DNA of 64,000 nt, taken from positions 382,944 to 446,943 of the forward strand of contig NVVD01000001.1 in NCBI GenBank assembly GCA_002402105.1, read 5' to 3'. This DNA comes from Candidatus Cloacimonadota bacterium. Its GTDB lineage: Bacteria > Muiribacteriota > UBA6191. The stretch's first letter is position 1; the number at the start of each line of letters is the position of its first letter. The notes beneath the pieces were generated by a model. It worked only from the letters and a program-made list of their open reading frames with translations. It did no database searches and was not told where the DNA came from. This document shows, one piece after another, positions 29,439 through 46,021 of this stretch. The position numbers and the translations under genes are program-made.

Positions 29439-30419
29439 ATGTTAAAAAAGTTGCTCATATGTCCTTTAGCAATAGGATGTATTTTTATAGGGACAAATAG
29501 CGCTTTTGATGTTCATTCATTAAATACGTCAATGCATGATTTGTCTGCTAAGCTAAAAACGACAATTATTTCAAGCCAAGACAAAGAACAAATGAAAAAA
29601 GATGCTGTTATCAGAAAAGAAGTTCAGGCAATTGTTTCTTCTATTGAGTCAGTAGATGATTTATTTGTGGCAAAAAAAGTAGCAGTTCAATATTCAACTG
29701 GTAATCCAGCAGATAAATTAGCTGCAAATTTATTATTAAGAGCACTTAAGAAAAAGGCTTTATTTTTAGGAGTAAACGATGCTCCAAAAGCTCCGCTCAT
29801 CGATTTAGATGGTGCTTTTAATATGCCAATCAGCAATCCAGTAGATTTTTTAAGGCCAGAAGAGTTTATCTCTATTGATGTACCAGCAGCAGAAGCAGTA
29901 GTTTATATTGATGCAAAAAAATATACTGATAGAGTGGCAAGTTTTGAAGGCATTTTACAAAGACATGAATGTGATACTTTATCAAAATATATCAATAAAA
30001 AAGGTGATGATTCATATAATTATTATGTTTCATGTAAGCAATTTGTTATTGAAGAGATAGTTCATCATTTTGATGGAGTTGTTGGTAGTGACTTTGTTGT
30101 AGAAATGGAACTCAAATCTGGTGGATGGTTAACAGGTAAAAAACTTGAGTATACTTTTAAGCCTAGTAGCAAAGAAAAGTCATCATTTCACTTTTTTAAA
30201 GCAGTTGTAGAAAAAGATCCTTTTGTATTTTTACATAACGAAAAATTAGTAGATTTAAATGAAATAGGAAAAGTAAAAGACATAGCAGGTAAAAGTACAT
30301 TAATTTTGAAAAATGCTAGAGTCAAAATGTGGGTGAAAGCTCCGGGAGCTGATAGAACTCAAGCTATATATTTTAGTGAAGAAAAATTTGGAGATATTCA
30401 AATGAGAGGGGAGAAATAA
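29439..30419 (+). CDS. Secreted protein of unknown function, first gene of a two-gene operon
   Basis: A 326-residue protein with a Sec signal (positive start, hydrophobic core to about residue 20). No family is recognised. The mature part begins with a helical region of about 120 residues. It is followed by a beta-rich part containing two cysteines (in 'RHECDTL' and 'VSCKQF') that may form a disulfide. The pattern 'GIGKVKDIAGKSTLIL'-like near the end suggests an OB-fold or similar small beta domain (low confidence). The gene is followed after only 2 bases by the TPR/coiled-coil gene, with the ribosome site AGGGGAG in its 3' end, so the two proteins probably work together in the periplasm. Confidence 0.75.
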   Translation: MLKKLLICPLAIGCIFIGTNSAFDVHSLNTSMHDLSAKLKTTIISSQDKEQMKKDAVIRKEVQAIVSSIESVDDLFVAKKVAVQYSTGNPADKLAANLLLRALKKKALFLGVNDAPKAPLIDLDGAFNMPISNPVDFLRPEEFISIDVPAAEAVVYIDAKKYTDRVASFEGILQRHECDTLSKYINKKGDDSYNYYVSCKQFVIEEIVHHFDGVVGSDFVVEMELKSGGWLTGKKLEYTFKPSSKEKSSFHFFKAVVEKDPFVFLHNEKLVDLNEIGKVKDIAGKSTLILKNARVKMWVKAPGADRTQAIYFSEEKFGDIQMRGEK

Positions 30420-30421
30420 TC

Positions 30422-31780
30422 ATGAAAAAATTTAATTTAACTCCTTTAAAGACTATGATCTCTGGTTTCGCAATAGCTAGTATACTAAGTATTAACCCAA
30501 TAAATGCAAATGAAACTAGTGAGATTGAAAAACTAGAACTCAAACTTTTACAAGTAGAACGAAATCTATTAAGTGCTGAACTTGAAAATGATGATGCAAT
30601 TAAAGATTATCATCAATTTAAAGGTATTAGAGGCTGGATAAAGGGATGGTTTAAAGGTTCAGAAAAACGTGCAATTTTAAGTGTAATGGATGAAAAATCT
30701 AAAGAAATTGATCAATTAGACTCTGAAGTTAGTCGTATCGAAAGTGGTATTCAAGCCGAAGTTTTTGAAGTTGGTCTTGGTTTTGAAAATCAAGGTGACT
30801 ACAAAAAAGCAATTGAATTTTATAAAAAAGTAACAAGAAAAGATGATCGGGTAAAACTAAGAATAGGTACTTGTTATCAAAATTTAAAAAATTATAAAGA
30901 AGCTATTACTTGGTATTTACAAATGAGTAATACAGATGAAAACTATTTATATATAGTTGATGCTTACTGGGAGTCTGGGAGCCATAAAGATGCAATTAAT
31001 TGGTTGTTTCGGATTCTTGAGCCTTATAGTGGGTATAAGGCAGAGCTAAAAGCGCTACAATTAATTGAAGAATATAATTATAATAATAAATTTAGTGATT
31101 TTGAGGACTTTAACGTTAGATTATCTGATGTTTATTTAGATAAAGCTCTAACTCTTTATGATGACTTTTTTAAAGAAGCAGTAGTTGATTATAAAAAAGC
31201 TATGACTTTAAGATCAGATGGAGATTCAGCCGCTAAAACTTCAAGAGGTGTTGTTAGATATTACTCAAGGCTTGTTCAAGAAGCAAAAGAAGTTTTAGAT
31301 GAAAAGCGTGAAGAAGCATACCATCATTATGAGTATTTATTACATCAAGCAGAAGATAATGTTAGAGATGCTGAGTATACTTATAATCAAAAGTTTCAAG
31401 AAGCTAAAAGAGACTATCGTTGGGCAATAGAGCGTGCAAAACAAAATGTGCGTGATGCTAGAAAAAACCTAAGAGCTTTAAGAGAAAATGAGAGTACTTT
31501 AGCAGAAGATCTTCAAAGAGCAGAAGTAAGAGTAAAAACGTTTGAAAGAAAATTCAACTACTTATTAAACAATGAACCAGAGTTTATTGAAAATGAAGTA
31601 AGAAGATACAGAATAAGAGTACACGAAGAGAAAAATGCATATCAGAGGTTAGTTCATTCAAGAGAACAAATTATCTCAGATTACATTGAGCCTTATCGTA
31701 GAAAAGTTGCTCGTAGTAAACGAAACTATAATCAAATTGTAGAGCTACATAGTTCTGCTTTTGATGATATTATTAGATAA
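30422..31780 (+). CDS. Secreted TPR and long coiled-coil protein
   Basis: A 452-residue protein with a signal peptide ('MISGFAIASILSI...NA' cleavage near residue 30). Residues 110-210 contain about three TPR units, for example 'ENQGDYKKAIEFYKKVT' and 'QNLKNYKEAITWYLQM'. Residues 230-450 form one long charged helix rich in Tyr and Arg, with recurrent 'A(E/K)xNVRDAxxxY' blocks, probably a coiled coil. The organisation suggests a periplasmic scaffold. It is the second gene of the operon and is followed by a strong terminator. Function is unknown. Confidence 0.8.
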   Translation: MKKFNLTPLKTMISGFAIASILSINPINANETSEIEKLELKLLQVERNLLSAELENDDAIKDYHQFKGIRGWIKGWFKGSEKRAILSVMDEKSKEIDQLDSEVSRIESGIQAEVFEVGLGFENQGDYKKAIEFYKKVTRKDDRVKLRIGTCYQNLKNYKEAITWYLQMSNTDENYLYIVDAYWESGSHKDAINWLFRILEPYSGYKAELKALQLIEEYNYNNKFSDFEDFNVRLSDVYLDKALTLYDDFFKEAVVDYKKAMTLRSDGDSAAKTSRGVVRYYSRLVQEAKEVLDEKREEAYHHYEYLLHQAEDNVRDAEYTYNQKFQEAKRDYRWAIERAKQNVRDARKNLRALRENESTLAEDLQRAEVRVKTFERKFNYLLNNEPEFIENEVRRYRIRVHEEKNAYQRLVHSREQIISDYIEPYRRKVARSKRNYNQIVELHSSAFDDIIR

Positions 31781-32666: not shown

Positions 32667-35093
32667 TTATTGCTTAAAGTCAGTATAAATCGATAGAGTT
32701 GATTTGGTGCTTTTAATGTTTTTAACTCTTATAGCTTGAATCATATCCTTTTTGTTTAACCCAGGTATAAGTTCACCTAGATTTAATATAATACCGCTAC
32801 ATTTAGCAGTTATTGTATCACCAGAAGATTTTGTAGATAAGATATAAAACTTTTGTTGTGCAGAGTCTTTTCTTATTTTTTCTAAGGTTTCTTTAGACAT
32901 ATACTTAGGTAAAAACCTGTTATAAACTTTTACCATTTGATCAAACTTTTGTTTGGCATGAGGGTCTTTTGGCATATATGGACCAGCTTTTTCTTGAATA
33001 ATCTTATTTAATTTATGTTCAAGAAAATCAAATGTCTTTGCAACCCCTTTTCCGATTACCCATTTAGTAACTTTACTAAAAAAAGAGTTTACGATTTTTG
33101 TAGGGAGCCAACTTACTTCTGGTACTTGAGGAGCCCATCCATCTCCTAAAACTAATTGTATTTCAGGGGTAACTCTAACAGAGTTAGTTTCTTTCATCAT
33201 TTCTCGTTTTAAAAATATTTTGGTAGTAGCGTAAGCATACCTTTTACCAAGAAGGGGCCAATCTATTTTTAGCCTCCATTTTGCAGATAAATCAAGAGTA
33301 TCTTTATTTCTCCAATGATTGTTCAATCCATCAAATGACTGAAGCCCAATATAGCCTTCAATAGAGAAAGTTTTTTTACCAAGTAAATAATTGAGAGTCC
33401 AACTGTTAGAGAATATTTTCTCTTCTTTAGAAAATTGCTTTTCAATAGCTTGTTTAAAGAGTTTATTTAAATCTTTTACATTTAAATGAATTTCAAAATC
33501 AGAAGTTTTTACAGGTTTTTGAATGGGGGTCTTGCCTAAAAAAAGTTGATATCCATGTATGGTTGGTTGAACGCCTATTTTATTATTCTTAAAATTTCTT
33601 TCTAAGGTAGCATCAATTTGTAAATTAATTTCAGGAAATGATTTATGGATAGTTTTAATATTATCTTTTAATTTATCTGAATCAAGGCCCTTTACACCTT
33701 TAGTTTGATCTCCAAGAAATGAGAGTATATTTTGGAGACTTTTTCCTCTACTAACTTTTAAGTCAGCATCAAGTCGAATAGAGTTTGGGTTAGATTCATC
33801 AAGATAGAGTTTGAAATGTTTTGGTGTAATTAAATCTGGTGCAAGAGCTTGGAGTGCTATTTTAGCAACAGAATCAGAGTTTGCATTAATATAAGAATTT
33901 AAATCTTTTGTGCTTGGATTAGAGGGAAGCTTGGCATAAGAGCCATCAGAATTTGTATTTGTAATATCATTGTCATCTAAAAACTTTTGATGAGAGATTA
34001 AAAAGTTTTTCATACTATTATGAATGTTTTTATTTTTATCTTGTAAGTTGCTTGCTAAATCAATTAAATTATCTACTAGTCCGTCAACTTTTTCATCATG
34101 CACCCTAACAGATTTATCATTTTTTAGGTGGTTCCAATATTTATCACCATCGTCTAAGCCTGCCATCACAGAGATTTTTCTAAGAAAAGACCCTGTTCTG
34201 ATGTAATAATATTTCGTTGTTTTTGAACCAGACTTAATATGCCTTTGTAGCGAGTGTAAGATTTTAGGAGTCTTAGGATTAAAATATAAAGAATAAGTAG
34301 CCCAACCAGCAAAAAATCCTCCTTTTTCTACGACTTGATCCCATCTAAAGTAAGATGAAGCAGATTTGTTTAATACTTTATGTTTAGAGAGGTAGGTTTG
34401 ATAAGCACCGTTACAAGACATTAATATAAGAGCTTTAAGTTTTTTATCTCCAAGCCATTTTTTTAAATCATCAGCACTTAAGTCAGCGTGTTGATCTCCA
34501 GAAGATTTATTGATTTCCTCAAATTGAGTAGGGTCTTCGAAAGAATATTCAGAAGGATAATAAAGAGCAACACCATTTCCTGTATCGCCATGTCCATAAA
34601 ATATAATTAATTTTGTATTGTCGTCTTTGATACTTTCTTTTACAGCATTTTTATAACTAGACCCAGTATTATAGTCACTAGAAAATAAATTTTTAACAGA
34701 ATACCCCATAGCTTTTAATGTTTGTGTAGTGGCTTCTAGGTCAACAAGATATTTTTTTGAAAAATTAGATAGAGTATCTTGAGTGGATGGGATACCAGAA
34801 AAAGAGTCTTTTAATTTATTTACTATTAATTGAGCACTAGGTGGAATTGCTAATTTACCTGCTCGAATAATAATAGCTTGACCAAGTGAACTTGTTTTAT
34901 AAAATTTAGTTTGAGTTTGAGTATTACTTTGTTTATTATTTTTAGAAGCTTGATTTTGATTAGAAGATTCTAAAGAGTTTGAACTTTGCTCACTTTGAAT
35001 ATCATCAAAAGAAGGTGATTCTATTTTTTGTGAATGAGTAAAAGTGAATGTTAAAAATAAAAGTATTGAAATTAGAAATAATGTTTTTTTCAT
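32667..35093 (-). CDS. Large secreted protein with caspase-like (clan CD) His/Cys motifs
   Basis: I place the start at ATG 35093, which gives 808 residues: a signal peptide (MKKTLFLIS..., about 20 residues) begins there and AAGGGAG lies 7 bases upstream. An upstream in-frame start would add 28 residues without a better site. After a Ser/Asn/Gln-rich linker, residues 70-260 resemble a clan CD peptidase fold: 'LIIFYGHGDTG' has H168 and 'ALILMSCNGAY' has C227, each at the end of a hydrophobic strand, as in caspases and gingipains. The remaining 550 residues contain beta-rich regions with no known motif. A secreted or surface protease, perhaps self-processing, is inferred; activity is not shown. 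The protein has no lipobox. Confidence 0.75.
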   Translation of the reverse strand: MKKTLFLISILLFLTFTFTHSQKIESPSFDDIQSEQSSNSLESSNQNQASKNNKQSNTQTQTKFYKTSSLGQAIIIRAGKLAIPPSAQLIVNKLKDSFSGIPSTQDTLSNFSKKYLVDLEATTQTLKAMGYSVKNLFSSDYNTGSSYKNAVKESIKDDNTKLIIFYGHGDTGNGVALYYPSEYSFEDPTQFEEINKSSGDQHADLSADDLKKWLGDKKLKALILMSCNGAYQTYLSKHKVLNKSASSYFRWDQVVEKGGFFAGWATYSLYFNPKTPKILHSLQRHIKSGSKTTKYYYIRTGSFLRKISVMAGLDDGDKYWNHLKNDKSVRVHDEKVDGLVDNLIDLASNLQDKNKNIHNSMKNFLISHQKFLDDNDITNTNSDGSYAKLPSNPSTKDLNSYINANSDSVAKIALQALAPDLITPKHFKLYLDESNPNSIRLDADLKVSRGKSLQNILSFLGDQTKGVKGLDSDKLKDNIKTIHKSFPEINLQIDATLERNFKNNKIGVQPTIHGYQLFLGKTPIQKPVKTSDFEIHLNVKDLNKLFKQAIEKQFSKEEKIFSNSWTLNYLLGKKTFSIEGYIGLQSFDGLNNHWRNKDTLDLSAKWRLKIDWPLLGKRYAYATTKIFLKREMMKETNSVRVTPEIQLVLGDGWAPQVPEVSWLPTKIVNSFFSKVTKWVIGKGVAKTFDFLEHKLNKIIQEKAGPYMPKDPHAKQKFDQMVKVYNRFLPKYMSKETLEKIRKDSAQQKFYILSTKSSGDTITAKCSGIILNLGELIPGLNKKDMIQAIRVKNIKSTKSTLSIYTDFKQ

Positions 35094-38286: not shown

Positions 38287-38607
38287 ATGATTTTATCAAA
38301 TTTAGAGTTTATACCTCAAAAAAAAATAGTGAAACATATTGGTTTAGTATCTGGTTCTACAATTAGAGCAAAACACTTTGGGTCAGACCTTATGGCTGGT
38401 TTAAAAAATATGATAGGTGGGGAGTTAAAAGGTTATACAGATTTAATGAATGAGTCTAGGCAAGAAGCAACTGATAGAATGATTGCCCAAGCTACTCAAT
38501 TAGGTGCAAATGCTATTATTAATATTCGTTTTTCAACTTCTTCTGTTGCTCAAGGTGCAGCTGAGTTGTACGCCTATGGTACAGCTGTAGTTGTGGAGTC
38601 TGTATAA
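38287..38607 (+). CDS. YbjQ/UPF0145 family protein
   Basis: A 106-residue soluble protein of the YbjQ (UPF0145) family. Signatures include 'LVSGSTIRAKHFGSDLMAGLKN' (seen as two blocks), 'IGGELKGYTDLMNESRQEA' and 'LGANAIINIRFSTS'. Family members form pentameric rings and have no agreed function; 'heavy-metal binding' in database names is based on weak evidence. Start ATG with AAAGGGA upstream. It overlaps the next gene by one base (TAATG). Confidence 0.9.
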   Translation: MILSNLEFIPQKKIVKHIGLVSGSTIRAKHFGSDLMAGLKNMIGGELKGYTDLMNESRQEATDRMIAQATQLGANAIINIRFSTSSVAQGAAELYAYGTAVVVESV

Positions 38608-39068
38608 TGGATCTTTTATTTACCTTTGCTCCTGTTTTCATTTTTTTAATTTTAGGATATATAGTAGGTTCAATTGTTGAAAAAAACCATTATAAAAGTA
38701 TTTATGCAAGAGAGGCTAAATTAATAGATTTACCTGTTTTGACTATTAAAAGAATACCTACTGATAAAATAGTGAGAGAAACTTTTTTAGTTCAGGGTTC
38801 GGTTGTTATTTCTTTAGATTATTTCAAGCGTTTTTTAGCAAGTATGAAAAACCTTATTGGTGGTAGGTTAGGCACTTATGAAAGTCTATTAGATAGGGCA
38901 AGAAGAGAAGCAATACTAAGATTAAAAGAAAATGCTACTGGTGCAGACATAATTTATAACTTAAAACTTGAATCCTGTGCAATAGGAAAATCTGCAAATT
39001 CAAAAAAACAAATAGGCTCAATAGAAGTATTTGCATACGGGACAGCCGTAAAATATTCAAAAGTTTGA
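38607..39068 (+). CDS. Membrane-anchored YbjQ-like paralogue
   Basis: A 153-residue protein with one N-terminal membrane helix (residues 4-22), followed by a YbjQ-like domain paralogous to the preceding gene: 'YFKRFLASMKNLIGGRLGTYESLLDRARREA' blocks and a closing 'EVFAYGTAVKY'. The tandem gives a free and a membrane-bound ring subunit. Translation is coupled to the preceding gene by the TAATG overlap. The M48 protease starts 4 bases downstream, so all three probably act together, perhaps in envelope stress (inference). Confidence 0.85.
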   Translation: MDLLFTFAPVFIFLILGYIVGSIVEKNHYKSIYAREAKLIDLPVLTIKRIPTDKIVRETFLVQGSVVISLDYFKRFLASMKNLIGGRLGTYESLLDRARREAILRLKENATGADIIYNLKLESCAIGKSANSKKQIGSIEVFAYGTAVKYSKV

Positions 39069-39072
39069 AAAG

Positions 39073-39960
39073 ATGGATGAAAGCCAAAAAAATTTAAAAG
39101 AAAAAAAGTTAGAAATGATTCAGATGACAATAAATCAATCGGATGAACACCCTTTAAAATCATTTGTTCATGTATTAGGTGGAATCTTAGTTTTTTTATC
39201 TATTGTTTATTGCAGTTTAAAAGTTGTAATAGATGCTAGTATCTATTTAATGCCAGATTCAACAGCCATTTATTTGACAAAATCTTTAGGCGATATAATT
39301 ATATTTAATCAAGAGTCTAGTGAAAAAAATGAAACTCAAAAATATGTTCAAGACTTATTAAACAGATTAAAAGAAAATTCAAGTCTAAAAAACGTAGACA
39401 TTGAAGTTATTATTAGATCAGATAGTACATTAAATGCTCTTTCTTACCCTGGCTATAAAATAGTAGTTAATCAGGGTTTGTTAGAGTTTGTTAAGTCAGA
39501 AAATGAACTTGCTTTTATTTTAGGACATGAGCTTGGGCATTATCATTACAGACATTTACTAAAAAGACTTAGCTCTTCTGTATTAGATTTTAGCGTTGCT
39601 ATTATTACTTTAATATCAGGAGTAGATACATCAATAGTTAAAACTTTATCTGCAAACTTAAATAAACAATTTTCTCAAAGACAAGAAAGTGAATCAGATG
39701 ATTATGCTCTTAAATTAGTAGATCGTACTTATGATGGAAATTCATCAGGAGCAACAGATTTCTTTGAAAAACTTTCTAAAACAGAGGGTTTTATTAGAAA
39801 TAGTTTAAACTTTCTATTTACTCACCCTCTATCTAAAGACAGAGTAAGCCATCTAAAAACTTCTATAGAAGATTTTAAAATGTCTGATAAAGGTTTAACA
39901 CCCTTACCAAAAAATATATTTATCTTAGATAACATATCCAAGAAAGAAGAAGATGAATGA
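39073..39960 (+). CDS. M48-family zinc metalloprotease, membrane-anchored
   Basis: A 295-residue protein with one membrane segment near residues 32-56 and no signal peptide cleavage site. The zinc motif is 'LGHELGHYHYRHLL' (HExxH) and the third ligand lies in 'RQESESDDYALKLV', where the glutamate is conserved in M48 proteins. It resembles HtpX/Oma1/BepA-type peptidases that clear damaged envelope proteins; the domain sits in the periplasm if the helix is an N-in anchor. It follows the YbjQ pair by 4 bases and overlaps the aspartokinase start by 4 (ATGA), making a mixed operon. Confidence 0.9.
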   Translation: MDESQKNLKEKKLEMIQMTINQSDEHPLKSFVHVLGGILVFLSIVYCSLKVVIDASIYLMPDSTAIYLTKSLGDIIIFNQESSEKNETQKYVQDLLNRLKENSSLKNVDIEVIIRSDSTLNALSYPGYKIVVNQGLLEFVKSENELAFILGHELGHYHYRHLLKRLSSSVLDFSVAIITLISGVDTSIVKTLSANLNKQFSQRQESESDDYALKLVDRTYDGNSSGATDFFEKLSKTEGFIRNSLNFLFTHPLSKDRVSHLKTSIEDFKMSDKGLTPLPKNIFILDNISKKEEDE

Positions 39961-45287: not shown

Positions 45288-45662
45288 ATGACAAATTCAA
45301 AAGAAGTTTTCAATAAACTAAAAAGCGAGGTTATTGCTTGGAAAAAAGTTAAAAATCGTAATGATAAATTACCCGTAAAAATAATAAAACAAGTTTTAGA
45401 TTTATCAAAAAAATATTCAGTTAGGGTAATTCATCAAGAAAGTGATTTATCAGAGTCAGTGATAAGAAAACATATAAAAAAGTCTTTATCAAATGGTTTA
45501 GAAGCTATTAATTTAATAGAATTAAGCTCTTCTTCTTTTGGAGATATTTTAGAAGAGCCTTCAAAATTAGTTTTAAAAAATAAAAAAAAGACTCTTGAGA
45601 TTAATTTAAAATTAACTCAAGATATTTTTATACAAAGCTTAGATTGGCTGGATAAGGTTTAA
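45288..45662 (+). CDS. IS66 accessory protein TnpA-like
   Basis: A 124-residue protein at the place of IS66 tnpA. It has a basic helical N-terminal half with a helix-turn-helix-like segment ('VRVIHQESDLSESVIRKHI') and an acidic C-terminal half. Divergent from the canonical family, but size, order and coupling to tnpB (TAATG overlap at 45660-45664) support the call. Its role in transposition of IS66 elements is essential but not catalytic. Confidence 0.75.
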   Translation: MTNSKEVFNKLKSEVIAWKKVKNRNDKLPVKIIKQVLDLSKKYSVRVIHQESDLSESVIRKHIKKSLSNGLEAINLIELSSSSFGDILEEPSKLVLKNKKKTLEINLKLTQDIFIQSLDWLDKV

Positions 45663-46021
45663 TGTTACAAATAGTCCCTCAAATGAAAATCTATTTGGCG
45701 GTAGAGCCAATCGATTTTAGATGTGGAATTGAGAGTTTAGGTGGTATTTGTAAAAACGTTTTAAAAAAGGATCCATTTTCAGGTTATTTATTTCTATTTA
45801 CAAATAAAAGTAAGATAGGGATAAAAGTTTTAGTTTATGATGAGCAAGGTTTTTGGCTATGCTACAAGAGGTTTTCAAAAGGAAAATTAAAATGGTGGCC
45901 TTCAAACAAGCAATATTTATCAAATGATATAGAGTTAAATTCAGTCGAGTTACAAAACCTTTTGATGAATATAAATCCAAAAAAACAAAGGCATGAAACT
46001 TTTAGAGAATTTAAGGTATAA
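45662..46021 (+). CDS. tnpB: IS66 protein TnpB
   Basis: A 119-residue IS66 Orf2/TnpB protein. The family block 'YLAVEPIDFRCGIESLGGI' and the later 'DPFSGYLFLFTNKSKIGIKVLVYDEQGFWLCYKRFSKG' (in pieces) match closely, including the aromatic 'GFWLCYKRF' strand. It accompanies TnpC in all active IS66 elements. It is coupled to tnpA by a one-base overlap. This TnpB is the IS66 protein, unrelated to the RNA-guided nuclease of the same name. Confidence 0.92.
   Translation: MLQIVPQMKIYLAVEPIDFRCGIESLGGICKNVLKKDPFSGYLFLFTNKSKIGIKVLVYDEQGFWLCYKRFSKGKLKWWPSNKQYLSNDIELNSVELQNLLMNINPKKQRHETFREFKV

Follow-up and report, generated by a model that had tools for sequence, protein, structure and literature searches.

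Our analysis of a 64,000-nucleotide stretch of DNA, hereafter called the window, suggested that one of its genes encodes an exported, diverged caspase-fold cysteine peptidase that is joined to a TULIP-type lipid-binding module, and that the two parts would be coupled through lipid. We put the probability of this combined reading at about one-half. The observed open reading frame (ORF) and its His and Cys motifs are real, and the initial annotation, which had assigned the protein to peptidase clan CD based on these two motifs, held up better than the usual two-motif guess. The TULIP-like tail is an added finding that goes beyond the His/Cys observation, and because of this tail the protein has an unusual architecture.

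The minus strand of positions 32667 to 35093 contained an ORF of 808 codons that ran from an ATG at 35093 to a stop codon at 32667, and the plus-strand frame of the same interval was packed with stops and held no ORF. Thus, the interval and the length of 808 residues proposed initially were correct, and the gene lies on the minus strand. An alternative TTG start would extend the ORF to 35177; the ATG at 35093 begins a clean signal peptide. When the gene was compared to that of a same-genus relative, codon positions 1, 2, and 3 differed 280, 159, and 434 times, respectively. Because third-position changes outnumbered second-position changes, we concluded that this is a real gene under purifying selection.

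Several parts of the protein were distinguished, all of them encoded on the minus strand. The signal peptide (MKKTLFLISILLFLTFTFTHS, residues about 1 to 21, positions 35031 to 35093) was read from the sequence and had neither a lipidation Cys nor a lipobox. The N-terminus visibly reads MKKTLFLISILLFLTFTFTHS-Q, which supported the earlier proposals that the protein has a signal peptide and is exported. A low-complexity linker rich in Ser, Asn, and Gln follows (residues 22 to 62, positions 34908 to 35030) and was weakly conserved in the relative. Next are the putative caspase-like (clan CD) domain (residues about 63 to 347, positions 34053 to 34907), which was delimited via hhalign and Foldseek, and a helical linker (residues about 348 to 425, positions 33819 to 34052), which was placed using the relative and the predicted structure and which contains a conserved NTNSDGSYxxLPxNPS sequence at residues 379 to 394. 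The tail (residues about 426 to 808, positions 32670 to 33818) is the proposed TULIP-type lipid-binding module or modules, as judged from Foldseek and from a distant relative in genome G007. Residues about 688 to 767 of the tail, which are helical, are an insertion that is missing from that distant relative. The initial annotation had described about 550 residues behind the Cys motif as beta-rich sequence. This description was appropriate for residues about 426 to 650 and 750 to 806, but residues about 275 to 425 were predicted to be mostly helical.

The two motifs were found where they had been reported: FYGHGDTG begins at residue 165 and contains His168 (codon at 34590 to 34592), ALILMSCNGAY begins at residue 221 and contains Cys227 (codon at 34413 to 34415), and the two residues are separated by 59 positions. 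The proposed nucleophile, Cys227, is one of two cysteines in the entire protein, the other being Cys765.

The protein did not reach any Pfam or NCBIfam family, and there was no match to peptidase family C14 at E values up to 10. The score was below the curated PF00656 cut-off (21.4 bits), PF00656 found nothing anywhere in the genome that carries the gene, and PDB sequence searches yielded no match. Because no curated family and no PDB sequence was matched, profile-profile comparisons were carried out. Specifically, a domain profile of the two relatives (A3) was aligned via hhalign with a profile of 12 C14 (caspase/metacaspase) proteins of the same phylum. The alignment scored 43.3 over 99 columns, with A3 columns 57 to 166 corresponding to residues 118 to 227; it began at the helix that precedes the second strand and ended at the catalytic Cys. 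His168 was placed on the catalytic His of the GHG motif and Cys227 on the catalytic Cys of the DxC motif. None of 60 column shuffles reached this score (maximum, 25.5), and the reversed profile scored 14.2. The same placement was obtained when each relative was aligned singly (scores of 41.7 and 34.5). When about 80 other ORFs were compared to the C14 profile, the only one that scored higher was L013, which is a true caspase-like protein, and the best unrelated ORF scored 21.0. Against this profile, proteins of C25, C11, and CHAT loci that are known members of clan CD scored about 20 to 56. In the case of C14 subsets, two small ones gave a score of 29 that no shuffle reached and two others gave scores within the shuffle range, indicating that the signal needs a diverse alignment.

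Structure predictions were examined next to the profile results. The AlphaFold model of the full-length protein had a mean pLDDT of 43 with an alignment of 3 sequences, and the model of the catalytic domain had a mean pLDDT of 36.5 with an alignment of 2 sequences, so modeling the domain separately did not raise confidence. In both of these low-confidence models, His168 follows a strand (residues 160 to 167) and is continued by the HGD sequence, and Cys227 follows a second strand (residues 221 to 226). The caspase/haemoglobinase core is built from parallel strands in the order 2-1-3-4 and helices a1 to a3. The predicted order of elements in our protein, b-a-b-a-b(His)-a-b(Cys)-a-b, agrees with that core (PMC4357240). 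In a fold search with the domain model, caspases or c-FLIP accounted for 20 of the 50 best PDB matches, but none of the matches to this low-confidence model passed an E value of 0.001; Rossmann-type folds were also present among the matches. The in-register alignment with C14, the positions of the His and Cys residues at the ends of successive predicted strands, and the caspases leading the fold search all favored the clan CD assignment made initially, and we consider it highly probable that the protein is a member of this clan.

Judged by sequence comparison, the front half is nearest to C14 (the caspases, metacaspases, and orthocaspases of PF00656), with which it shares the strand-His-Gly and strand-Cys order. 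However, it falls outside C14 as defined by the curated cut-off, and the protein as a whole differs from C14 proteins in its TULIP-like tail. The initial annotation had spoken of a family that it could not name, which was apt for a protein that is nearest to C14 and yet reaches no curated cut-off. The C14 proteins compared here carry an Asp two positions before the nucleophile (DxC). Unlike the C14B metacaspases and orthocaspases, our protein has Met225 in place of this Asp (MSC, residues 225 to 227), and therefore the usual preference of metacaspases for Arg or Lys would not be expected.

The C25 (gingipain/PorU), C11 (clostripain), C13 (legumain), and CHAT families belong to the same clan and have the same His-then-Cys order, and the protein matched none of these families in Pfam. 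Each of them fit worse than C14. C25 was taken into account because its gingipain/PorU-like members are nearly universal in the phylum (36 of 37 genomes); the C25 profile scored 22.0, compared to a shuffle maximum of 23.4. The CHAT and C13 profiles scored 17.4 and 18.6, respectively, compared to shuffle maxima of 20.8 and 21.3. The C11 score of 31.0 was weakly above the shuffles and covered 45 columns that exclude Cys227. The genomes of the phylum are rich in clan CD peptidases in general, with numerous C11 proteins of the clostripain type, as many as 24 of them in one genome.

The gene is single in its own genome, and relatives were found in 3 of 40 genomes of the phylum: its own genome, a same-genus genome, and one from the same class but a different family. 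Thus, the protein is rare and lineage restricted. The same-genus relative (record JAGSHD010000025.1, deposited as Candidatus Cloacimonadota bacterium) is 57 to 59% identical over the full length. In the third relative (G007:C206; L003, L008), only the tail is visible, with 28% identity, because the gene runs off the end of the contig. Identity to the same-genus relative was 69% in residues 62 to 347, 38% over residues 1 to 62, and 47% in the first part of the tail (residues 426 to 560). The 20-residue windows that contain His168 and Cys227 were 85% identical, compared to 59% overall, and residues 261 to 280 were 95% identical. Both catalytic candidates and their loops were invariant between the two full-length proteins; this invariance rests on two sequences because a single full-length relative was available. 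As for the homologues lacking either residue that had been anticipated as possible counterevidence, the one full-length relative retains both.

No further relatives were detected in viral contigs, in plasmids, in 382 assorted genomes searched with the domain profile, or in 287 genomes searched with the tail, and two scans of genome contigs returned nothing beyond the known record of the same-genus relative. In the search of 382 genomes, the best match outside the genus was a caspase-like protein whose His strand was covered (E value of 0.0026 per genome, which is weak by itself). The weak matches that we characterized were L013, L015, and L017; L014, L016, L018, and L019 were left out. L015 was dismissed because it resembles an Obg/YchF-type GTPase, and L017 because it resembles an RHS-type repeat protein.

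The tail had been described as unknown, and this is where the initial annotation needed revision, as the PDB fold matches of highest probability were TULIP lipid-binding proteins. The TULIP fold is a tube in which a long twisted antiparallel sheet is wrapped on a long helix, and TULIP modules are regarded as lipid carriers. The Foldseek search of the PDB with the full model was led by P47, YceB, Der f 7, OrfX2, Der p 7, LBP, SPLUNC1, and BSP30b, all of which are TULIP proteins and come from separate families. Among the 50 PDB matches listed for the full model, every match with a probability of at least 0.4 was a TULIP protein. The E values were about 0.001 to 0.3, with none passing 0.001, and the model had a pLDDT of 43. 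The TULIP matches were attributed to the tail because the N-domain model searched by itself yielded none. The resemblance to the TULIP superfamily (BPI/LBP, PLUNC, Der p 7/Takeout, YceB, and P47) is at the level of the predicted fold, with long strands and helices; the tail has no sequence-detectable link. The tail profile scored 14.8 against DUF4403, a known bacterial TULIP family and the sole one compared, while shuffles scored up to 20.5. DUF4403 was chosen in place of P47/OrfX, which are families of neurotoxin gene clusters. This negative result was not considered decisive because TULIP families often cannot be linked by sequence or profile (PMC6791001). Based on the models, the tail probably adopts a TULIP-type fold. 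The initial suggestion that the protease cleaves its own tail gained no support, and we propose a TULIP-type lipid-binding module as the better account of this part.

Taken together, the architecture suggests a protease that is steered or switched by membrane lipids. The exported protein would sit in the periplasm or outside the cell, with His168 and Cys227 forming the catalytic dyad of a peptidase that has diverged far from C14. The helical linker would join this peptidase to the C-terminal TULIP-type module, whose tubular pocket may accommodate a hydrophobic ligand. By binding a lipid or lipid-like compound present in the cell envelope or the surroundings, the module could place the protease at the membrane or switch it on, and the peptidase would then cut a nearby envelope or extracellular protein. 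For a secreted peptidase with its own lipid-binding tube, the simplest role that we infer is proteolysis tied to a membrane or lipid signal. The more specific idea of a caspase-fold protease of the bacterial envelope that carries its own TULIP lipid sensor to control its activity or placement, that is, a lipid-gated protease outside the cytoplasm, is put forward tentatively.

Four other explanations were weighed against this lipid-coupled peptidase. The tail might be a different beta-rich fold that is related to lipids or the envelope, or a module for dimerization or adhesion. The low confidence of the tail model and the negative DUF4403 comparison fit this explanation, but at least seven separate TULIP proteins filled nearly all of the top places in an unbiased PDB search, and we regard it as doubtful. 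It is also possible that the protein is a pseudo-enzyme, in which a caspase fold without peptidase activity is retained for scaffolding or binding while the tail carries lipid. The large divergence from C14 is compatible with this idea, as is a survey of bacterial caspase homologues, in which 84% carry the intact dyad and homologues without it are not rare (PMC3501461). In contrast, the His and Cys loops are among the best-conserved windows, which would be unexpected if catalysis had been lost and which makes a pseudo-enzyme unlikely.

Self-processing, in which the N-domain cuts its own linker (e.g., near NTNSDGSY, residues 379 to 386) and frees the tail, would be in line with the conserved linker between the two parts and with the self-regulation and autoprocessing that are common in clan CD (PMC4357240). 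However, the linker could be conserved for other reasons, and self-processing seems improbable. Least credible is that the front half lies outside clan CD, as a Rossmann-like or other exported alpha/beta domain with HG and SC motifs that arose by chance. The missing curated family match, the weak models, and the Rossmann-type folds in the fold search speak for it, but the alignment is in register on both catalytic residues and scores far above those of the shuffles, the reversed profile, and unrelated ORFs, and we judge this explanation to be very unlikely.

No earlier description of a caspase-like or other protease paired with a TULIP domain was found when the literature was searched for "caspase-like" together with "TULIP domain." The available part of the survey of bacterial metacaspases (PMC3501461) names no lipid-binding partner, and the words "lipid" and "TULIP" are absent from that text; two papers on TULIP proteins (PMC5507252 and PMC6791001) make no mention of proteases or caspases. 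If our reading is true, then this protein would extend the caspase clan by an exported branch that is very diverged, and would be the first protease-TULIP fusion found in the literature searched. It would also allow lipid-dependent proteolysis in a bacterial envelope to be tested directly on a single protein.

The gene stands alone and is convergent with a methyltransferase-like gene. The neighbor genes of the same-genus relative differed from those in the window, and therefore gene order provided no functional context. Near the ORF, two adjacent plus-strand genes (positions 29439 to 31780) encode secreted proteins of 326 and 452 amino acids that belong to unnamed families; the larger protein has coiled-coil/TPR-like repeats. 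Elsewhere on the plus strand of the window, we recognized by eye two small ORFs similar to IS66-family accessory genes (positions 45288 to 46021), as well as two consecutive genes for small YbjQ-like proteins and, after them, a gene that resembles those of M48-type metallopeptidases (positions 38287 to 39960).
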